42,735 bases of DNA from the NCBI GenBank assembly GCA_003248075.1, contig QJYK01000197.1, positions 1-42,735 on the forward strand, read 5' to 3'. This DNA is from Gemmatimonadota bacterium. Lineage in GTDB: Bacteria > Gemmatimonadota > Gemmatimonadetes > Longimicrobiales > Gaopeijiaceae. Of the stretch, positions 3,776 through 28,685 are shown in pieces (position 1 is the stretch's first letter; the number at the start of each line of letters is the position of its first letter). The translations under genes were made by a program, and so were the position numbers. Under the pieces are notes generated by a model. It saw nothing but the letters and a program-made list of their open reading frames with translations, was not told where the DNA came from and searched no databases.

Positions 3776-5035
3776 TCAGCTCCCTCGAACCAGGGCCAGG
3801 CGTGCGGCCGCCTGCGGATGGTCGGGCGCGAGCGCCAATACCCGCTCGTACTGTCTCACCGCTCGGTCGCGCTGCCCGGTGTACCGGTATGCCTCTCCCA
3901 GCTGGAACTGGCTGTTCGGGTCGTCGGGATGATCCTTCGCGTTCAGCTCGAACACGGCCACTCCGGCGGCCGCCCTTCCCCCGGACAGGAAGCGGTACCC
4001 GACGGCGATCGCTTCGGCGGTAACGTCCTGTGAAGGTCTTGCCGCCCGGAAGGCCTCATAGGCGACGCGCACGGGTTCGAGACCCTCCTCGGGGCCTATC
4101 CGCTCGAGCACGTCGGAGAGCGACACCAGACGGACGCGCCGCAAGGTCGAGCGCGCAGCGCCCCCGCCCACCCCGTTGCCCGAGACCAGATCGTTCACCC
4201 ACAGCTCGGTGCCGGCGGGGGAGGAGGCGATGCCGTTCGGCTGGCTCATCGACGCAGCGAGCGCCGGCCCATCCCGCTCGGCCTGACGTCCATCTCCGGC
4301 GACCGGTCGATACGTGCCGTCCCGCTCGAGACGATAAACCCGATGTCCGCGGAACTTCGTGACGTAGAAGCCACCCCGTGCGAACGCGATGTGTCCGTTG
4401 CCTCCCGCCCCGGCGATCTCCGCGAAGCGCGTCGCAGCCCCGTCCGGCGTGATCCGCACCACGTTCACGTTTCCGAAGTTCACCACGTACAGATCGCCAC
4501 GGTCGTCGAACGTGATCCCGTTCGGGCACGCGAACAGCTCGCCGGCTGAAAAGGTTGATACGCTGCGGTCCGGTGCCACCCGCGCGATGGTGCCCGCATT
4601 GCAGTTGCAGACGTAGAGCTCGCCTTCGCTTCCGGCGGCGATCCCGACGGGCCCGCTGAGCCCCTCGTCCACCCACGTCTCCACGGTGCCGTCCCGATCG
4701 ACGCGGGACACGAAGTTGCCGTGGAAGCTCGACTGGTACAGCTCGCCCCTCGGACCGATCGCGTTCCCCGACGCGCCGTAGAACCCGCTCGCGTAAAGCT
4801 CCACAGGACCTCCCGGCGTGTACCTCCAAACGGAGTTCCGGAAGTCTGCGAAGTAGACGTAGCCCAGCGCATCCACGGCCACACCGCCAACCGCCCCCAT
4901 CCCCGGCACGGTGTCCGAATCCACGACGGTGGTGACGCTGTCCGGGGGGATGGCGCTCTGGCCCTCCACGCCTCCGGTGAATGTCGTCCACGCGATCACG
5001 ACCCAACCGGCGCTCTGCAGCATCCGGCCCACCAT
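3776..5035 (-). CDS. secreted NHL/SMP-30-like beta-propeller with C-terminal TPR
   Basis: 419 residues with a signal peptide (about 1-25, ending GGVEGQS). Residues about 40-300 are repeated propeller blades of the NHL/streptogramin-lyase/SMP-30 type (VDALGYVYFADFRN, GPRGELYQSSFHGN, DDRGDLYVVNFGN, PNGIASSPAGTELWVND). The last ~80 residues form TPR-like helices (NSQFQLGEAYRYTGQRDRA, YERVLALAPDHP). Enzymatic activity cannot be assigned; a periplasmic binding or scaffolding role is equally likely. A good ribosome site (GGAGGTGGGG) precedes the ATG. Confidence 0.75.
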   Translation of the reverse strand: MVGRMLQSAGWVVIAWTTFTGGVEGQSAIPPDSVTTVVDSDTVPGMGAVGGVAVDALGYVYFADFRNSVWRYTPGGPVELYASGFYGASGNAIGPRGELYQSSFHGNFVSRVDRDGTVETWVDEGLSGPVGIAAGSEGELYVCNCNAGTIARVAPDRSVSTFSAGELFACPNGITFDDRGDLYVVNFGNVNVVRITPDGAATRFAEIAGAGGNGHIAFARGGFYVTKFRGHRVYRLERDGTYRPVAGDGRQAERDGPALAASMSQPNGIASSPAGTELWVNDLVSGNGVGGGAARSTLRRVRLVSLSDVLERIGPEEGLEPVRVAYEAFRAARPSQDVTAEAIAVGYRFLSGGRAAAGVAVFELNAKDHPDDPNSQFQLGEAYRYTGQRDRAVRQYERVLALAPDHPQAAARLALVRGS

Positions 5036-5118
5036 GCCCCACCTCCGTCTCGAGGGGTACCCGCCTCGCCCCTACGCTCGAGGTGACGGCATGTTGCTGG
5101 ATGGCGCAGGTCGTGGTG

Positions 5119-5628
5119 TCAGATGAAGACGACCTGTGCCCCCTCCGCCTTCTCCCAGAAATCCATGGCGGTGATGCTCTCGGTGACCTGTGGTACCAGG
5201 TCCGAGACCTCCAGGCCGAACATCTCCATGGCCAGCTGGCACGCGTACAACTCGGCCCCGGCGTCTCCGAGGATCTCCAGCATCTCGCGAACGTCGGGAA
5301 TGTCGAGCTTCTCCATCTTCTTCTTCATCATGCCGGTGGCCAGCGCCTCCATTCCGGGCAGTCCCATGACCGAGTGCGGCATGGGGCTCGACGGATTTCC
5401 CAGCATCCCCGCGTGGAGGTGATCCACCTTCTTGTCGTTGATGATATCCAATCCCCAGAACGTGAAGAAGACCATCGCCTCGAGACCCATCATGCGCGCC
5501 GCGTTGGCCATGATGAGGCCCGGGTAGGCCATGTCCAGGCTCCCCTTCGAGCAGATGATGGCGACCTTGCGCGAGGTCTCGTTCGCCTCGACGGGGGAGA
5601 GGACGTCCGCCTCCATCGTGGTGTTCAT
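5119..5628 (-). CDS. DsrE2-type (DsrE/F-like) sulfur-carrier protein
   Basis: 169 residues. Start MNTTMEAD is chosen because its ATG overlaps the stop of the upstream DsrC/TusE gene (TGATG); a longer reading frame extends over that gene in another frame and is rejected. The fold pattern (KVAIICSKGSLDMAYPGL, then MGLEAMVFFTFWGL, then GAELYACQLAMEMFGL) matches the DrsE_2/DsrE2 group. Conserved cysteines at 26 and 130 are candidate persulfide carriers. DsrE-family proteins pass sulfane sulfur to TusA/DsrC partners, and the upstream neighbour is such a partner. It is the last gene of the sulfur operon. Confidence 0.88.
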   Translation of the reverse strand: MNTTMEADVLSPVEANETSRKVAIICSKGSLDMAYPGLIMANAARMMGLEAMVFFTFWGLDIINDKKVDHLHAGMLGNPSSPMPHSVMGLPGMEALATGMMKKKMEKLDIPDVREMLEILGDAGAELYACQLAMEMFGLEVSDLVPQVTESITAMDFWEKAEGAQVVFI

Positions 5629-5942
5629 CAGATGCACCCCTTCGGCTTGGACAGGCCGGCGATTCGCGAGGCCAGGATCCCGGGTCCCTTGGGGAAGAGC
5701 TGGTACATCTCCTTCGTCGAGATCCCGGTTCCCTTGGTGATGCCGCGCACCGTCGGGGGGGCTCCCTTGTCCGCGTTCGTCCTGCGGCAGAAGTCGATCA
5801 CCTGCCAGTGCTTCTCGCTGAGTGTGATCCCACTCCCCGCCGCGATCTCCGCCGCGATCTCGGGCGTCCATTGATCGGGATTCAGAAGGAACCCCTCGGC
5901 ATCCACCTCGATCGGGCTTCCCGCCAACAGCATCGTGCTCAT
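5628..5942 (-). CDS. DsrC/TusE-family sulfur-relay protein
   Basis: 104 residues, the normal size for DsrC/TusE. Typical features are DAEGFLLNPDQWTPEIA, KHWQVIDFCRR and a flexible C-terminal arm ending KPKGCI with the penultimate cysteine (Cys103, 'CysA'). The second redox cysteine of respiratory DsrC ('CysB', 11 residues earlier) is serine 92 here, so no intramolecular trisulfide of the dissimilatory DsrC kind can form. The protein is therefore closer to TusE or a persulfide carrier. It overlaps both neighbours by 4 bases or fewer. No dsrAB is present in the window. Confidence 0.9.
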   Translation of the reverse strand: MSTMLLAGSPIEVDAEGFLLNPDQWTPEIAAEIAAGSGITLSEKHWQVIDFCRRTNADKGAPPTVRGITKGTGISTKEMYQLFPKGPGILASRIAGLSKPKGCI

Positions 5943-6517
5943 GTCGTTACTCCCGCGTCGTCGAAAGAGGTGGCCAGCGCCACCTCGGTCTTGGCATGGC
6001 CTTCGGATCCCATCTCCCGGAGCACGTTCAGCATGAGCGTCATGCCACGCCGCACTTCCGGGTCCCGCAACGCTCGCCAGAGCCCCGGCCGCCTGCGCGC
6101 GCCCTCGTCGGTCCCGTGCAGGGCCGTGGCGGCCCGGTCCGCGAGCTGCATGACGTCGGGCTGCGTGAGGTTGCGAACGGTTCTCAGGATTCCGACGACG
6201 TTGTCGCCGAGAAGACGGACGTCTTCTTCTGAGAACGACGTCGCAACCCGCTCGCCCATCTTCACCGCCTCCCGGGCGAAGCCGAGCGCACCGCCCTGCT
6301 CCAGCGCGTGGAGCTTGCGAGAGATCGCCTGGGAGGCGCCATGAACCATCGGCCAGAGGTCCTCGCGCATCTCCTCGAGCCCTTCGAGACGGTGTGTGAC
6401 CGCGTCGATGACGTGCTCGATGCGGTCCATCTTGGCGTTGAGCGCCCTCAGCTCCTGGAGGATCTCCGACGTACCGGTCTCCGCCGGCGAGAGGTCCATC
6501 ACTTCCGAGATCGTCAT
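5939..6517 (-). CDS. DUF1641 domain protein
   Basis: 192 residues from ATG 6517 (MTISEVMDLSPAETG); its stop overlaps the start of the DsrC/TusE gene. It is an all-helical, soluble-looking protein: residues about 18-60 form a likely coiled coil (ELRALNAKMDRIEHVIDAV), followed by the DUF1641 core (LLGDNVVGILRTVRNLTQPDVM, then RRGMTLMLNVLREMG). DUF1641 proteins are repeatedly found with SQR-like or formate-dehydrogenase-type oxidoreductases and have no established biochemical role. Here it sits between a flavoprotein and two sulfur carriers, so an adaptor role is a reasonable guess. Confidence 0.85.
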   Translation of the reverse strand: MTISEVMDLSPAETGTSEILQELRALNAKMDRIEHVIDAVTHRLEGLEEMREDLWPMVHGASQAISRKLHALEQGGALGFAREAVKMGERVATSFSEEDVRLLGDNVVGILRTVRNLTQPDVMQLADRAATALHGTDEGARRRPGLWRALRDPEVRRGMTLMLNVLREMGSEGHAKTEVALATSFDDAGVTT

Positions 6518-6519
6518 AG

Positions 6520-7752
6520 TCAGCTCCACTTGCCCAGCAGGGACATCTTCGAGTCGACGAACGGGATCTCGCGTCCAGCCAGCAGCTGGTTCCAGTAGAC
6601 CGAGCGAAACGCCATCTTGCCCCAGTGGTTGGCCTCGCTCTCGCCGAGAAGGCTCAGCGGGCCGATGCCGGGAAGCGGGAAACGACCAGGAAGCGGCTCG
6701 GTGTCGTAGTTGAAGTCGATGAGCACCGCCTTGCCGAATCCGGTCTCGATGAAGCAGTTGGCGTGTCCGTCGAAGTCCTCGCACAGCTTCCGGCCATCGA
6801 TGGCGCGGAGCACGTTCTTCTCGAGGACGTCCCCCTGGAAATGGGCCACCGACCCGGCCTTCGATGAGGGGAGATCGGTGGCATCACCGAGAACGAACAC
6901 GTTCTTGTGCTCCTTGGAGCGGAGCGTCTCCCGCTCCGTGGGGACGAAGGCGAGGTCGTCACCCATCCCGGATCGCTCGACGGCCTCACTCCCCATGTTC
7001 GTGGGTATCGACACGAGCAGATCGTACCGGACCTCTCGCCCGTCCCAGCTCTTGAGGATGCGACCGTCACCGTCGATCTCGCTCGCGTTGAACTCGGTCT
7101 CGACCAGGACGTTCTTCTCTGCGAGCAAGCCTCCCAGAAGCGCGGATGCCCGTGGCTTGGTGAAGGCTCCGTCCAGCGGCGTCGCGTAGACGAGCTCGAC
7201 CCTGTCCCGGTTCCCCTTCTGGTGGAAGAACCAATCCGCCAGAAAGAGAAACTCGAGCGGAGCGACCGGACACTTGATCGGCATCTCGGCAACGTTGAGC
7301 ACGAGCCGCCCCTGCTCGAACCGCTCGAGGGCGTAGAACAGCTGTTGGGCTCCCTCGAGCGTGTAGAAGTCGAAGATGTTCTTCCGCCAGCCCGGCCCGG
7401 TCAGCCCCTCAGTCTCCGCGGGTACGATGCGGCTTCCGGTCGCGACGATCAGGAGATCGTACGGGAGCCTCGACCCGTCGGAGAGCCGGACGGAGGACGT
7501 GTCCGGGTCGATCACGTCGATGCCCGACAGAACGAGCTCCACCCCGTTCGGGATGAAGCGTCTCCTCGGCTTCACGACATCGCGGGCTCGGTAGATCCCG
7601 AACGGGATGAAGAGGAGGCCGGGTTGATAGACATGGCGATCGTCCTGATCGACCACGGTGATCGCCCACTGGTCGGGGTCCAGCGCCCTGCGGAGCTTGG
7701 ATGCCATCATGGTCCCCGCGGTGCCACCCCCCAGGATCAGCAGCTTCTTCAT
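6520..7752 (-). CDS. sqr: sulfide:quinone oxidoreductase-like FAD protein
   Basis: 410 residues from ATG 7752, behind GAGGAAGGAC; the reading frame extends upstream but lacks a signal there. An N-terminal FAD Rossmann motif (LLILGGGTAGTMMASKL) and a second dinucleotide motif (VFVLGDATDLPSSKAGS) mark the SQR/FCSD-like two-dinucleotide-binding family. Cys161 (MPIKCPVAPLEF) and Cys333 (DGHANCFIETGFG) correspond to the two redox cysteines of mitochondrial-type SQR (human Cys201/Cys379 contexts). This supports oxidation of sulfide or a related sulfur compound with electrons to quinone. The C-terminal segment (about 360-410) has hydrophobic and aromatic residues suited to membrane docking. First gene of the operon. 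Confidence 0.85.
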   Translation of the reverse strand: MKKLLILGGGTAGTMMASKLRRALDPDQWAITVVDQDDRHVYQPGLLFIPFGIYRARDVVKPRRRFIPNGVELVLSGIDVIDPDTSSVRLSDGSRLPYDLLIVATGSRIVPAETEGLTGPGWRKNIFDFYTLEGAQQLFYALERFEQGRLVLNVAEMPIKCPVAPLEFLFLADWFFHQKGNRDRVELVYATPLDGAFTKPRASALLGGLLAEKNVLVETEFNASEIDGDGRILKSWDGREVRYDLLVSIPTNMGSEAVERSGMGDDLAFVPTERETLRSKEHKNVFVLGDATDLPSSKAGSVAHFQGDVLEKNVLRAIDGRKLCEDFDGHANCFIETGFGKAVLIDFNYDTEPLPGRFPLPGIGPLSLLGESEANHWGKMAFRSVYWNQLLAGREIPFVDSKMSLLGKWS

Positions 7753-7794
7753 CGTCCTTCCTCGTGTCGAGCCGCCGGGTTCTGTCACCGGCGC

Positions 7795-7826
7795 CATCGA
7801 CACGAGGAGCAACAGCGATGCCGCAT
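7795..7826 (-). promoter_or_regulatory. sigma-54 promoter of sqr operon
   Basis: The minus strand reads GCGGCATCGCTGTTGCTCC: GG (7822-7821), exactly 10 bases, then GC (7810-7809). This matches TGGCACG-N4-TTGCW at 9 of 12 positions, including the invariant GG/GC and TTGCT. Transcription would start near 7797, leaving a leader of about 45 bases before the sqr ATG at 7752. The adjacent sigma-54 activator gene supports it. Confidence 0.72.
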
Positions 7827-7837
7827 GGGGTCGCGCG

Positions 7838-7885
7838 CTTATGTGACTATCCCACAGCGACTTATGTGAATAACACACCTGGTGT
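7838..7885. promoter_or_regulatory. repeat cluster between sigma-54 promoter and UAS
   Basis: A 9-mer CTTATGTGA occurs twice (7838-7846, 7861-7869) with starts 23 bases apart. It is followed by an 11-bp perfect palindrome ACACC-T-GGTGT (7875-7885). These lie about 40-90 bases upstream of the predicted start, where IHF or a second regulator would bind. TGTGA half-sites are CRP/FNR-like, but no full consensus site is present. Confidence 0.35.
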
Positions 7886-7910
7886 ACGGTCCTGAGGCGA
7901 AACGGAGCGT

Positions 7911-7946
7911 TGCAACGTCTTGAAACGTCTGAACCGTGACGTTTCA
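7911..7946. promoter_or_regulatory. candidate upstream activator sites (UAS) for the sigma-54 activator
   Basis: Three related 10-mers occur in a row: TGCAACGTCT (7911-7920), TGAAACGTCT (7921-7930) and, inverted, TGAAACGTCA (7946-7937). The last two form a perfect 9-bp inverted repeat (TGAAACGTC at 7921-7929, GACGTTTCA at 7938-7946) with an 8-base spacer. It lies about 115-150 bases upstream of the predicted transcription start, a normal distance for NtrC-type enhancer sites. The same half-site occurs ahead of the activator gene. Confidence 0.65.
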
Positions 7947-8003
7947 GAAGGGCCCGGGCCGAAACGGCAGTCGATCGGCCGCGTGGCGGCGGCCGCGGCC
8001 GCG

Positions 8004-9722
8004 CTACAGGCCGTACTCCCTCATCTTCCGCCAGAGGGTCGTGCGGCTCATGCCCAGGATGCGGGCCGCCTCGTCACGCCGATAACGAGCCGACTCGAGC
8101 GCCGCCCGGATGCGACGCACCTCGAACGCCCGCCGGGACCCGGCGCCGTCGGGGTCCGTTTCGTCCACGGACCGGACCGTCGCCTGCGCGAACGCGGGAC
8201 CACCGGCGGGGAGGCGTGCATCCGCCTGCTCCTCATTGCCGATCTCGCGGGGGAGATCGCCGACGTGGATGGTCTGGCCCTGGCACACCGTGGTGGCGTA
8301 CTCCAGCGCGTTCTCCAGCTCCCGGACGTTCCCCGGCCACCCGTATCCGAGCAACGCCCGGCCGGCCGACGGGGCGAGGCGGAGGGATCGACCCCTCTCC
8401 CGACCGATTCGTCCGAGGAGGTGGCGGATGAGCAGCTCGAGGTCCTCGCGGCGCTCCCGGATGGGCGGGATGTGGATCGGCACCACCCGCAGCCGATAGT
8501 AGAGATCCTCCCGGAAGCGGCGCTCGGACACCGCCTGGACCAGGTTCACGTGCGTCGCCGCAATGATGCGGACATCCACCGTCCGCGTACGCGAGTCGCC
8601 GACCCGCTCGAACGTGCGCTCCTGCAGGAAACGCAGGATCTTCGCCTGCAGGGTGAGGGCGAGATCCCCGATCTCGTCCAGGAACAGCGTCCCGCCGTCG
8701 GCCAGCTCGAAACGTCCGGCCCGGTCCTTCACCGCCCCGGTGAACGCGCCTCGAACGTGGCCGAAGAGCTCGCTTTCGAGCAGCTCGGGGGGGATCGCAG
8801 CGCAGTTCACGGCGACGAAGGGGCCGCTCCGTCGGTGGGAGGTGTCGTGGAGCGCGCGCGCGACCAATTCCTTTCCCGTGCCGCTCTCCCCGGTCACGAG
8901 GACCGTCGAATCGTTCTCACGAAGCAGCTCGACCAACCGGAAGATCCGTTGCATCGCCGGCGACCGGGCGACCATCCCCTGGAACGCCGGCGCCGGTCCT
9001 GGCCCCGTCTCGGGTCTCATCATGACCACGTAGCGCCCCTCGGGCACTCCGCACGAGATCGTCTCGGGAACCGCACCGACCGTGAGGGAAACGCTCCGCG
9101 TGGTTCCGTCGGGCCCTGAGATCTCCGCGGCCCAGCCCTCCCTCCGCTCGCCCTGGGCAACCGCCGAGCGGAACGAGGCGGCCGGACCGAAGAGCTCGGT
9201 CCCGAGGAGCTCTTCCAGGGGCGTGCCCTGAAGTCGGTCCGTTGGGATGCCGACGACTTCGGCGAGCGCTGGATTGAAGGCCGCGACGCGGAAGTCGGAG
9301 TCGGCCACGATGAGAAGCCGTCCGAGCGCACCCAGGAGCCGGAACGGGTCGATCGCACCCGCCGCAGCGGAAATGGGCGTGCCGGAGGGACGAACGAACT
9401 CGATGGCGCCGGTCACGGCGCCGGCCTCGTCACGCAGGACCTGCCCTGACTTGAGCACCTCGACCTGCGTGCCGTCCGAGCGGTACAGCTGGAGCCGCAC
9501 GTCCTGCACCGACCCGTCCGCGAAAACTCCACAGCCCTTCAGGCACTCGGGGCAGCGGTTGAGCGTGAGACAGGAGCGCCCCAACACGTCGCGGGCGGCG
9601 AACCCCGTCAGGCGCTCCATCGCGGGGCTGAGAGCCACCACGTTGCGGTCCGCGTCGACGCGGAAGTACGGGAGGTCGGCCAGGTCGGCGAGCAGCGAGG
9701 TGGTGTCCCCTTCCCGGACCAT
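8004..9722 (-). CDS. sigma-54-dependent activator with Cys-rich PAS domain
   Basis: 572 residues from ATG 9722, preceded by GGAGG four bases upstream; a TTG 39 bases earlier is less likely and lies inside a palindrome. Domains: PAS-1 (about 10-112) with Cys51, 57, 60 and 64 (CLTLNRCPECLKGC); PAS-2 (about 126-225); AAA+ sigma-54 domain (about 240-470) with GESGTGKE, GAFTGA and GGTLFLDEIGD; C-terminal Fis-type helix-turn-helix (RRDEAARILGMSRTTLWRKM). There is no response-regulator receiver domain, so PAS domains are the likely signal input. The cysteine cluster suggests redox, metal or sulfur sensing, which is inference. It lies just upstream of the sqr operon, which has a sigma-54 promoter, and it probably activates it. 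Confidence 0.93.
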   Translation of the reverse strand: MVREGDTTSLLADLADLPYFRVDADRNVVALSPAMERLTGFAARDVLGRSCLTLNRCPECLKGCGVFADGSVQDVRLQLYRSDGTQVEVLKSGQVLRDEAGAVTGAIEFVRPSGTPISAAAGAIDPFRLLGALGRLLIVADSDFRVAAFNPALAEVVGIPTDRLQGTPLEELLGTELFGPAASFRSAVAQGERREGWAAEISGPDGTTRSVSLTVGAVPETISCGVPEGRYVVMMRPETGPGPAPAFQGMVARSPAMQRIFRLVELLRENDSTVLVTGESGTGKELVARALHDTSHRRSGPFVAVNCAAIPPELLESELFGHVRGAFTGAVKDRAGRFELADGGTLFLDEIGDLALTLQAKILRFLQERTFERVGDSRTRTVDVRIIAATHVNLVQAVSERRFREDLYYRLRVVPIHIPPIRERREDLELLIRHLLGRIGRERGRSLRLAPSAGRALLGYGWPGNVRELENALEYATTVCQGQTIHVGDLPREIGNEEQADARLPAGGPAFAQATVRSVDETDPDGAGSRRAFEVRRIRAALESARYRRDEAARILGMSRTTLWRKMREYGL

Positions 9723-9743
9723 GGGGCCTCCGTCGGGGCATGG

Positions 9744-9770
9744 TGGAACATCTCGTTTCAAGATGTTCCA
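9744..9770. promoter_or_regulatory. palindrome upstream of sigma-54 activator gene (autoregulatory site)
   Basis: Perfect 10-bp inverted repeat TGGAACATCT (9744-9753) / AGATGTTCCA (9761-9770) with a 7-base spacer, 22-48 bases upstream of the activator's ATG. Its arms match the half-sites before the sqr promoter at the pattern TGNAACRTCT. This fits binding by the same protein and autoregulation; a site this close to the start codon would more likely repress. Confidence 0.6.
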
Positions 9771-9842
9771 CGCATCGGGGTCGCGAAGTCGGGGATTCTC
9801 CCTTCCACTCTGTGGGGGCGGGGTTCCAGGTCCGCGGCCGGG

Positions 9843-11690
9843 TCAGGGACTGACGACCTCCCAGATCCCGAGGTCCGGCCTGGCCCGCCAGGGAAGGACC
9901 CAATCGGGCGCGTCCCCCGAGCGGAGTCGCGTCACGAACGGCGCCGCTCCGCCCTCCGGCGCCGCGGGAGCCTCGACACCGCAGGCCACGACCACGTCCA
10001 CGCCGCGCTCGTCGATCAACCGCTTCGCCTCGTCGGGATCAGGGGTCTCGAAGACCCGCCTGGCATCCAGGATCCCCCTGGCGTTCCGGTGGTACGGCGT
10101 CGCCACCACCGAGTGGAGTGTCCGGTACAGGAGGACCGGCCCGAGGTCCACGTGCGCGAGCACGATGCGCGGACGGTCGCCCAACCCTGCAGGGTCGTCC
10201 AGCGCGGCGACGAGCTCCTCCACGGGGCAGGCCTGGGTCTGAGTGGCCGCCGCGGCCTGAACCGCACCCCCCGCCTCCCCACCGGCGGCCATCACGGCGG
10301 CGCCGAGAAGCAAGGGGCCGGCGATGATGGCGGCCCCCGTGAAGGCCCGTCGTAGCCCCGACAGGGGCGAGGCTTCGCGGACCCCGAAGGATGCCAGCGC
10401 ATACGACAGCAGGGCCATGGCGCCGAGCACGCCGAGCAGCTCCGCGTACATGACGAAGCGTACCCAGCGAATGCCGAGGGGGAAGAAGAGCGCCAGCCCG
10501 ACACCGAGCAGGATCCACACGTCGAAGCGCCGCGTCCCCCGATCCGCGGTCAGACCGCGGGCCACCACGACCGCGGCGATCAGCGCCGAGCCCAGGTAGG
10601 CGACGATCCGCCCCACGTCCGCCACTCCATGAGGAACCAGGAACGGCTGGAACTCGGTCAGGAACGGGAGCCAGCTCCGCTTGAGCTCCGGATCCACGTC
10701 CGCCATCGGCCCGGCGAAGAAGCCCGGATAGGCGAGAAGCACGACCCCGGACCCCACCGCTCCACCCACGACGGCGAGCAGCAGTCGACCGGGGCGGCTG
10801 AGGTCCGAGGCGAGCCCGGACGCTGCCGCGACCCAGAACGACGCCACCAGGCCGAAAACGAGAATGTGGACGATGGAGACGCGGTCGAGCTCGGGGGCGA
10901 GGAGCGCAGACGGCGGATGCTCGAGCACCACGGCCAGCGCCGTGACGCCCACGAGGCCGGCTCCTGCGGAACGCGCGCGGGTCGCCATCTCCCGCCCGCG
11001 GCGGATCCAGGAAAGGGTGAGGGCGAGGATGAGAACGGCGACGGGCACGAGGAACTCGGTGCTGATCCACACCCCGAATGCTGCCCATGCTCCACACGGC
11101 CAGCCGCGCACGGATGGGGACGGATCCAGAAGGAGCCGGATCGCCGCCCCGTGCATCGCCACGAAGGCGAGCAGGATCAACATGTGGTGATCGGCGCGCC
11201 CGGGCAGCGCATAGCCCATAGCTCCGACCTGTGCCAGCACGGCGATCATGGTGTAATAGCGGACCCGGGAACCGGCCAGCGGGCGCACCGCCCAGGCCGT
11301 CGCGAAGCAGACCGCGATCAGGAGCAGGGGCGACAGGGCCACGCCGGCCACGTGGAGGGCGCGAGAGAACCCCAGCGCAGGCCGGAGGACGCCGGTGAGC
11401 ACGAGAATCAGCACGTCCACCGGGCGCGTCCAGTGGAGCGTCTCCCCGAACGGGGCGTCACTGCGGGGTATCGTGGCGTCGTACCACGCTCTCGACTCCG
11501 CGAGCTGACGGACGCGCACCAGGCGCATGTAGCTGTCCGTGTCGACCAACCTCCCGTCCAGCAGCTCCGGCACCACGCGCAGGACGAGAAGGGAGAACAG
11601 AGCGGTCACCGCCCCCGCGAAGAGCAGATCGCCGACCCGGGAGCCCCCGGGCGGCTCCCATGCACCGGATCGGCTCAGCTCGTCCGACAC
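9843..11690 (-). CDS. STT3/PMT-like GT-C membrane protein
   Basis: About 615 residues from GTG 11690, preceded by GAGGAG; the in-frame upstream extension to 11840 is low-complexity and has no better signal. Many hydrophobic helices fill residues about 20-470. After the first helix comes an acidic loop (VDTDSYMRLVRVRQL), then LHWTRPVDVL and GRADHHMLILLAF. These three elements resemble the D-x-D, PPG-hW and DHH regions of STT3-family oligosaccharyltransferases. The C-terminal ~150 residues are periplasmic-like. It probably transfers a sugar from a lipid-linked donor in the periplasm; acceptor and donor are unknown. Confidence 0.65.
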   Translation of the reverse strand: MSDELSRSGAWEPPGGSRVGDLLFAGAVTALFSLLVLRVVPELLDGRLVDTDSYMRLVRVRQLAESRAWYDATIPRSDAPFGETLHWTRPVDVLILVLTGVLRPALGFSRALHVAGVALSPLLLIAVCFATAWAVRPLAGSRVRYYTMIAVLAQVGAMGYALPGRADHHMLILLAFVAMHGAAIRLLLDPSPSVRGWPCGAWAAFGVWISTEFLVPVAVLILALTLSWIRRGREMATRARSAGAGLVGVTALAVVLEHPPSALLAPELDRVSIVHILVFGLVASFWVAAASGLASDLSRPGRLLLAVVGGAVGSGVVLLAYPGFFAGPMADVDPELKRSWLPFLTEFQPFLVPHGVADVGRIVAYLGSALIAAVVVARGLTADRGTRRFDVWILLGVGLALFFPLGIRWVRFVMYAELLGVLGAMALLSYALASFGVREASPLSGLRRAFTGAAIIAGPLLLGAAVMAAGGEAGGAVQAAAATQTQACPVEELVAALDDPAGLGDRPRIVLAHVDLGPVLLYRTLHSVVATPYHRNARGILDARRVFETPDPDEAKRLIDERGVDVVVACGVEAPAAPEGGAAPFVTRLRSGDAPDWVLPWRARPDLGIWEVVSP

Positions 11691-27341: not shown

Positions 27342-28685
27342 TCAGGCCTTGCGGGCGAGCTTCTGCTGGATGACGCGCGTCACCTTCTCGGACACGCCCC
27401 CCAGCGGAAGCCGCGACAGCACCTCCCCAAGGAATCCCAGCACCACCAGTCGCTCCGCCTGGACCCTGGGAAGCCCTCGGCTCTGGAGGTAGAAACGCGC
27501 CTCCTCGTCCAGCTCACCCACGGTGGCACCGTGACTGCACTTCACGTCGTCGGCCTCGATCTCGAGGTTGGGCAGCGAGTCGGCGCGCGCATGCGGTGAC
27601 AGCAGCAGGTTGCGGTTCGTCTGGTACGCGTCGGTGCGCTGGGCGCCGGGGTGCACGCGGATGATGCCCCGGAAGACAGCCCGACTCGCACCGTCGAGTG
27701 CGCCCTTGTAGAGCAGGTCGGAGCCCGCGTTCGGCGCGACGTGGTCCTGACTCGTGTTGAAGTCGAAGTGCTGGTCCTCGTCCCCGAAGTAGAGGCCGAG
27801 CATGTCCGAGTTCGAGCCGGGGCCGAGCAGCCGCGCGTTCAGATCCACGCGCGTGGTCGTCCCGCCCAGAGCGACGTTCAACGTGTCGAGCGTGGCGTCC
27901 CGGCCGGCAAGCGTGCGCTGCACCGACTGGTAGAAGGCGCCCTTCCCGAGTCGTTGCACCGCGACGTACTGGACCTGCGCACCATCCTGTGCGATCACCT
28001 CGACCGCGGACGACGTGAGCATCTGCGCATCGAAATCGTCCGACAGGACTTCGTCGACGTACGAGACCTGGCTCGCCGTCTCCGCCACGATGAGGGTGCG
28101 AGAGAACGAGGCCACGCCGGCCTCGCTGAACCAGCGTGTGATGCGGACGGGCGACTCCAACCGGACGCCGCGAGGCACGTACAGGAAGATCCCGTCGTTC
28201 CAGAGCGCCGCGTTCAACGCGGCGAACTTCCCTTCTTCCGGGGGTACGGCCTTGGTGGCGAGGTACTCCTTCACCAGGTGCGGATGAGACTCGATCGCGT
28301 CGTGTAGCGAGGCGAGCACAACACCCTTCCTGGCGAGCGACTCGTCGATGTCCGTGTGTACCACGTGCCCGTCGATGACGACCAGGTGGCCCGACGCCTC
28401 GCGGTCCTGGGCCATGGTCTCGCGCAGGCGCATCGGCCACGACGCGAAATCGTCCGCCGCGGGCGGCGCGTCACTTAGCCGCAGCACCTCCAGGTCGAGC
28501 TTCCGCCGCAGGTCCGTGTAGCGCCACTCCTCGAGCCGCGTCGACGGCATCGGCGTGCGCTCGTACACGTCCCACGCGTGGTCGCGCCGCTCACGCAGCC
28601 AGTTCGGCTCCTTGGCCGAAACGCGCCCGACCGCCGCGCCGTTGAGCGCCGAAGTCACCCCTTCCATGAGCCCCGTATCGTTCAT
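27342..28685 (-). CDS. sufD: SufD, Fe-S assembly protein
   Basis: 447 residues with the SufB/SufD beta-helix core: GIFLYVPRGVRLESPV, then RTLIVAETASQVSYVDE, DARLLGPGSNSDMLGLYFG and KCSHGATVGELDEEARFYLQSRG (the His/Glu region). It lacks the extra N-terminal region of SufB and forms SufBC2D with the neighbours. Spacing: 10 bases to the Rieske gene downstream, 150 bases to sufB upstream, where a palindromic element sits. Confidence 0.93.
   Translation of the reverse strand: MNDTGLMEGVTSALNGAAVGRVSAKEPNWLRERRDHAWDVYERTPMPSTRLEEWRYTDLRRKLDLEVLRLSDAPPAADDFASWPMRLRETMAQDREASGHLVVIDGHVVHTDIDESLARKGVVLASLHDAIESHPHLVKEYLATKAVPPEEGKFAALNAALWNDGIFLYVPRGVRLESPVRITRWFSEAGVASFSRTLIVAETASQVSYVDEVLSDDFDAQMLTSSAVEVIAQDGAQVQYVAVQRLGKGAFYQSVQRTLAGRDATLDTLNVALGGTTTRVDLNARLLGPGSNSDMLGLYFGDEDQHFDFNTSQDHVAPNAGSDLLYKGALDGASRAVFRGIIRVHPGAQRTDAYQTNRNLLLSPHARADSLPNLEIEADDVKCSHGATVGELDEEARFYLQSRGLPRVQAERLVVLGFLGEVLSRLPLGGVSEKVTRVIQQKLARKA

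Follow-up and report, generated by a model that had tools for sequence, protein, structure and literature searches.

The sqr operon of a Gemmatimonadota bacterium very probably constitutes an enhancer-driven σ54 switch for sulfide oxidation, and comparison with related loci suggests that the σ54 activator of some relatives has been pared down, probably on more than one occasion, to a switch resembling an autorepressor. The operon is located in a 42,735-nucleotide stretch of contig QJYK01000197.1, the whole of which is referred to below as the window. In the proposed mechanism, activator dimers would bind to two 17-bp operators located three helical turns apart, at ca. −109 and −141. The N-terminal cysteine-rich PAS domain of the activator would meet a signal, and gene context together with conserved cysteines points to sulfane sulfur or another thiol-reactive sulfur species in this role. 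The signal would lead to assembly of the AAA+ ring and to looping to σ54 RNA polymerase at the −24/−12 element, after which transcription of sqr-DUF1641-dsrC-dsrE would start. A third operator, located before the start codon of the activator gene, may allow the activator to limit its own synthesis.

The sqr operon and its predicted promoter

The four genes of the operon are on the minus strand. The first, sqr (6520–7752), codes for a type III sulfide:quinone oxidoreductase (SQR; NF049943, 625.9 bits against a cut-off of 525). It is followed by genes coding for a DUF1641 protein (5939–6517, PF07849), a DsrC/TusE-like sulfur carrier (5628–5942, PF04358, with TIGR03342 over its cut-off), and a DsrE-like protein of the DsrE2 type (5119–5628, PF13686, with NF047629 below its cut-off). 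No persulfide dioxygenase was recognized among these four genes. One model whose cut-off sqr exceeds is named “selenoprotein subtype”, yet the sqr frame is open throughout and contains no in-frame TGA.

The initial annotation had placed a GG-N10-GC element upstream of the sqr ATG, and such an element, CGGCATCGCTGTTGCT, is indeed found at 7808–7823 of the minus strand. In its −12 GC, the C occupies position 7809, 57 nt upstream of the ATG at 7752, and the predicted transcription start is at ca. 7797 (minus strand). When scored against the σ54 consensus TGGCACG-N4-TTGCW, the predicted promoter reaches 9 of 12, its −24 box being CGG and not TGG. When the 200-nt region was dinucleotide-shuffled 1000 times, this score was equaled 37 times (P 0.037), and the element is therefore modest by itself.

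Regulators with the same cysteine-rich PAS domain (Cys-PAS) were found in 13 of 121 genomes of the family, in 12 of 395 genomes of the phylum, and at eight loci on GTDB contigs, the three sets overlapping; loci found in duplicate (L018/L045, L020/L046, L016/L021, L014/L022, and L017/L023) were counted once. Left out of the counts were L048 (N-terminal piece, more distant AAA+ protein, cut by the contig), L024 (also cut by the contig), L054/G246 and L057/G005 (matches near 1e-18, the cysteine motif not being found by pattern), and three full-length regulators with no adjoining sqr (L050, L025, and L053, the last of which is also cut). The SQR type itself was found at 18 loci in 200 genomes, and all five genomes with a Cys-PAS regulator fall among these 18 of 200. 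The 13 loci that have no regulator were used as controls; in one of them, L069, the start of sqr was unreadable, leaving 12.

A GG-N10-GC element scoring 8–11 of 12 is present 47–72 nt before the sqr ATG in all seven loci where a full-length regulator and sqr are in tandem. The shuffle P of the best element was 0.037 in the window, 0.031 in L014, 0.068 in L015, 0.001 in L019, 0.009 in L047, and 0.208 in L058, while in L051 no shuffle equaled it (0/1000); the elements of L015 and L058 are weaker than that of the window. In the eighth full-length locus, L020, where sqr is divergent from the regulator gene, the element scores 11 of 12. The initial annotation had named lack of conservation in orthologous loci as evidence that would count against the element; the scan found it in eight of eight loci with a full activator (seven tandem, one divergent). 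The same scan before sqr revealed no such element in any of the five loci with an AAA+-less regulator, and the 12 readable controls had neither a match of at least 8 at the promoter place nor an operator match of at least 10 within 400 nt. The comparison of loci supports the predicted σ54 circuit proposed earlier: the element occurs in full-activator loci alone, and the operators keep a fixed distance from the predicted start. The genome of the window contains rpoN (430.1 bits, over the cut-off), as do all five genomes tested.

Paired operators upstream of the predicted promoter

An inverted repeat with an extra half-site had also been described upstream of the promoter. Its arms, TGAAACGTC (7921–7929) and GACGTTTCA (7938–7946), are present, with more half-sites alongside, but the 26-bp repeat was rejected as the operator unit, since relatives keep not this form but a 17-bp palindrome, TG(A/C)AAC-N5-GTT(T/G)CA (TGMAAC-N5-GTTKCA). 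What is conserved in the window is a pair of such palindromes on the minus strand, the predicted distal enhancer operator TGAAACGTCACGGTTCA (7930–7946, centered at −141) and the predicted proximal enhancer operator TGCAACGCTCCGTTTCG (7898–7914, centered at −109), each with 11 of 12 matches. The extra half-site between them (7921–7929, strand not assigned) is one arm of the 26-bp inverted repeat, and a weaker operator match (8 of 12), centered at −122, runs across it. A third operator, TGAAACGAGATGTTCCA, which the initial annotation had missed, is found at 9744–9760 (minus strand), 21 nt before the activator ATG at 9722, and is predicted to be autoregulatory.

The 5.64-Mb assembly contains six places that match the operator with at most one mismatch, and three of these (7898, 7930, and 9744) lie within 1.9 kb at this locus. 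A backwards control pattern matches 27 places in the same assembly; at the rate given by these 27 places, the chance of finding at least three operators in a 1.9-kb stretch is ca. 1e-7 (calculated by hand). The operators at this locus are not there by chance. The genes at or in which the other three places of the genome are found have no evident connection with sulfur, and these places were taken as background rather than as a wider regulon. If up to two mismatches are allowed, the window alone has four matches, compared with a mean of 1.47 in shuffles; with so loose a threshold, this result says less.

The distal and proximal operators are centered at −142/−110 in L015 and at −143/−110 in both L047 and L058. 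In L051 the proximal operator is at −108 and the distal match, at −144, is weak; in L014 the sites at −144/−110 are imperfect palindromes, and the top-scoring site is at −123. The proximal position is held in six loci, the window included, and is shifted one helical turn further out in L019 (−153/−120) and L020 (−153/−121), where the 32–33 bp spacing between the two operators is kept. The SQRs of L019 and L020 are sisters in the SQR tree. When the top-scoring site or sites of each of the seven tandem loci were compared, five fell within one 3-bp interval; none of 2000 shuffled sets reached this number, the largest count being four (13 sets).

The activator and its own operator

As the initial annotation had it, an activator gene lies upstream of sqr. 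It runs in the same direction as sqr; its stop codon is at 8004 of the minus strand, and the gene ends 251 nt upstream of sqr. According to domain matches and the translation, the gene (8004–9722, minus strand) codes for a protein with a Cys-PAS domain, a second PAS domain, a σ54 AAA+ domain, and a Fis-type helix-turn-helix (HTH). The AAA+ domain (PF00158, 243.9 bits) has a GAFTGA loop that can be read in the translation, and the C-terminal HTH (PF02954, HTH_8) occupies residues 543–583 of 585. The ATG at 9722 is the preferred start; the listed open reading frame begins with a TTG at 9761, inside the operator. The cysteines of the first PAS domain form the motif C-x5-C-x2-C-x3-C, the second, third, and fourth being 6, 9, and 13 residues away from the first. 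All four are invariant in the first five regulator sequences aligned; among 16 regulators, the first three cysteines are present in every sequence and the fourth in 15. The first cysteine appears to be located near the position of the photo-adduct cysteine of LOV domains, the rest of the LOV motif not being kept.

The palindrome at the activator's own start is found in the window and before 11 further regulators of both the full-length and the shortened kind, and is weakest in L047 (9–10 of 12). It mostly ends 13–27 nt before the likely start codon; exceptions are L015, where it abuts the ATG, and L047, where it is 35–45 nt before the start. For L050 and L049 the distance depends on which start codon is used: it is 16 nt and 27 nt, respectively, with a GTG, and 58 nt and 84 nt with the ATG. 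The L020 regulator shares operator sites with the divergent sqr, and L019 is cut before the regulator start, so its own-start site would be outside the available sequence. The position of this operator suggests that the activator represses its own gene. By eye, no operator is present before the regulator start of L025, a Myxococcota relative of the full-length activator (5941–7629 of that locus). In place of sqr, the L025 gene is followed by one showing CxxCH motifs of a haem-binding-like kind; a gene for an iron-sulfur protein comes further along.

Regulators without an AAA+ domain

At five loci (L016/G190, L017/G075, L018/G261, L049/G253, and L052/G238), the regulator is shortened to one Cys-PAS domain and HTH_8. 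None of these five proteins, referred to as minis below, has an AAA+ match, and the second PAS domain is missing as well. The sqr gene starts 2–43 nt past the stop codon of the mini gene. An operator was found only before the regulator, and the enhancer pair of the full-length loci was not found; no σ54 element above chance was found either before sqr or before the regulator, and in two mini loci that were reread there was no operator in the 400 nt before sqr. Both mini genomes tested still contain rpoN. The L016 protein was modeled confidently with AlphaFold2 (mean pLDDT 87.5), and the solved folds nearest to its PAS domain are LOV domains.

The Cys-PAS/HTH protein, encoded directly before sqr and behind the kept own-start operator, would serve as a releasable repressor. 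Minis most likely act as repressors released by the signal to which the full-length activator would respond; their operator near the start codon suits blocking, and they have no AAA+ domain with which to remodel the σ54 polymerase.

In an SQR tree built with outgroups, the regulator-linked SQRs form one clade. Full-length loci are found on its deep branches, while minis and the window are in the derived part, where the window groups with L016, L018, and L049 (support 90.8/96). The position of the full-length window among minis suggests that the AAA+ domain was lost several times, the regulator tree, in which most supports near the minis are 23–64, being too weak for a count. For the complete history we see an even chance: in one family, a σ54 activator of the sulfide response would have lost, in frame and probably more than once, its AAA+ and second PAS domains; each time sqr would have come to lie directly behind the regulator gene, the σ54 promoter and the enhancer pair would have gone, and the formerly autoregulatory operator would have become the only one of the operon. 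One set of sensor, HTH, and DNA site would then serve two mechanisms, activation from an enhancer and release from a repressor. The clade of regulator-linked SQRs also includes L071 (G051), which has no regulator, operator, or σ54 element nearby, a point against the proposed circuit; the enzyme can be kept with the switch absent.

Alternative explanations

It is highly improbable, in our estimate, that sqr is transcribed from a σ70-type promoter, the GG-N10-GC element being a chance match and the repeats being repressor operators. The recurrence of the element at a constant place in eight of eight full-activator loci, and only there, argues against such an arrangement even though the element is weak when taken alone (P 0.037), and operators located more than 100 bp upstream fit enhancers and not repression. 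A σ70 scan of positions 5000–10000 gave nothing in the sqr intergenic region, its single weak match being at 5510–5537, away from sqr. What speaks for a σ70-type promoter is that the operator is retained at loci with shortened regulators, where no σ54 element was found, from which it follows that operator sites can serve without σ54. A second alternative retains the σ54 circuit as described but has the PAS domain sense another cue, either redox state, through a metal or iron-sulfur center on the four cysteines, or a flavin. We regard this as possible though doubtful: the C-x5-C-x2-C-x3-C motif could hold a metal center, and the nearest solved folds are LOV domains, but a sulfide-oxidation gene context accompanies 13 of the 16 regulators, and the LOV motif is by eye not kept after the first cysteine.

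For the minis, the proposal that they activate σ70 transcription, or assist a different AAA+ protein that acts in trans, appears unlikely. No second Cys-PAS gene was found in the five mini genomes, and the lone operator precedes the start codon by 13–27 nt (by 84 nt in L049 when its ATG is taken as the only start), a position that is probably downstream of the −35 region and suits blocking. PAS-HTH regulators of either sign nevertheless exist, as exemplified by CrtJ, which can repress or activate according to PMC9144470. Less probable still is an ancestral AAA+-less form that later gained the domain; a regulator tree with poor resolution and supports mostly of 23–64 near the minis would accommodate such a gain, but in the SQR tree with outgroups the deep branches of the clade belong to full-length loci, and minis, like the window, occupy derived positions. 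Loss of the AAA+ domain, leaving a repressor, is the reading that we prefer.

Relation to known systems

The locus combines the features of systems controlled by bacterial enhancer-binding proteins: an AAA+ domain with GAFTGA, a C-terminal Fis HTH, a −24/−12 element with operators ca. 100–150 bp upstream, and rpoN in the genome. At glnAp2, NtrC occupies two dimer sites ca. 32 bp apart, near −108 and −140, an enhancer geometry resembling the −109 and −141 of the window; the signal and the operator sequence differ, and there is no receiver domain here. PpsR/CrtJ regulators contain PAS domain(s) and a Fis-type HTH and no AAA+ domain, and in this they resemble the minis. PMC4452267 describes the PpsR/CrtJ repressor as having cysteine-linked redox control and palindromic sites. 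The minis differ from it in having one PAS domain instead of several, in their operator (TGMAAC-N5-GTTKCA, not TGT-N12-ACA), and in their association with sulfur genes rather than photosynthesis genes.

Among known activators, FisR comes closest in function and gene arrangement. FisR of Cupriavidus pinatubonensis and of Acinetobacter baumannii (PMC7315123 for the latter) is described as a σ54 activator with an N-terminal sensor, an AAA+ domain, and a Fis HTH, whose gene adjoins sqr and which is predicted to drive sqr from a σ54 promoter. The system of the window shares the N-terminal sensor, AAA+ domain, and Fis HTH, the adjoining sqr, and the predicted σ54 promoter. It is FisR-like and not FisR, because neither the spacing of the cysteine pair nor a persulfide dioxygenase neighbor is found here: C-x5-C-x2-C-x3-C does not fit the Cys53/Cys64 pair reported for FisR in PMC9495516, and the operon contains dsrC, dsrE, and DUF1641, no persulfide dioxygenase being recognized in it. 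The activator gene is also in tandem with sqr, whereas the A. baumannii gene is divergent.

A member of the enhancer-binding family that has abandoned σ54 is Caulobacter NtrC, which has no GAFTGA and acts at σ70 promoters (PMC12421884). In that protein GAFTGA alone is missing and the AAA+ domain is kept, whereas minis are devoid of the whole region comprising the second PAS and AAA+ domains, and their promoter is rearranged. How a regulator leaves σ54 has so far been approached through proteins of this kind; relatives that seem to have cut out the motor domain and kept the DNA site offer a natural test of how an activator can lose its activation machinery, and regulators with and without the AAA+ domain, on one and the same operator, make a natural series for this transition. 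Among papers on AAA+-less enhancer-binding proteins, none was recognized as this case from titles and abstract openings. A search for Gemmatimonadota, sulfide quinone oxidoreductase, and σ54 jointly found no report, and the locus provides a compact predicted σ54 circuit with a defined operator in a phylum for which no report of σ54 control of sqr was found.

Other features of the regulatory regions

A perfect 12-bp inverted repeat (7759–7770 and 7797–7808) spans the predicted transcription start and the ribosome-binding site of sqr; its upstream arm is mostly before the predicted start, and may therefore not be transcribed. No conserved 5′ leader hairpin was evident. The AT-richer stretch between the operators and the promoter contains two 18-nt direct repeats (7838–7855 and 7861–7878), which are 83% identical and not obviously conserved among relatives. 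A search for a good IHF-like site between operators and promoter in eight loci gave a full match (9/9) in L051 alone, with 7/9 in L020, and the lack of such a site in the other loci speaks against the proposed circuit. A σ54-like match at 27524 is inside a suf-type gene and was taken as chance.

Upstream of the own-start operator, the five minis L016, L017, L018, L049, and L052 have the sequence TTCCCGACA (7–9 of 9 matches), at a distance of 35–36 nt in three of them and 47–48 nt in two. By eye, TCCCCGA(C) is seen at similar phased distances near 9795 (minus strand) in the window and in several full-length loci. The TTCCCGACA sequence could be a promoter −35 element or the site of a partner protein.
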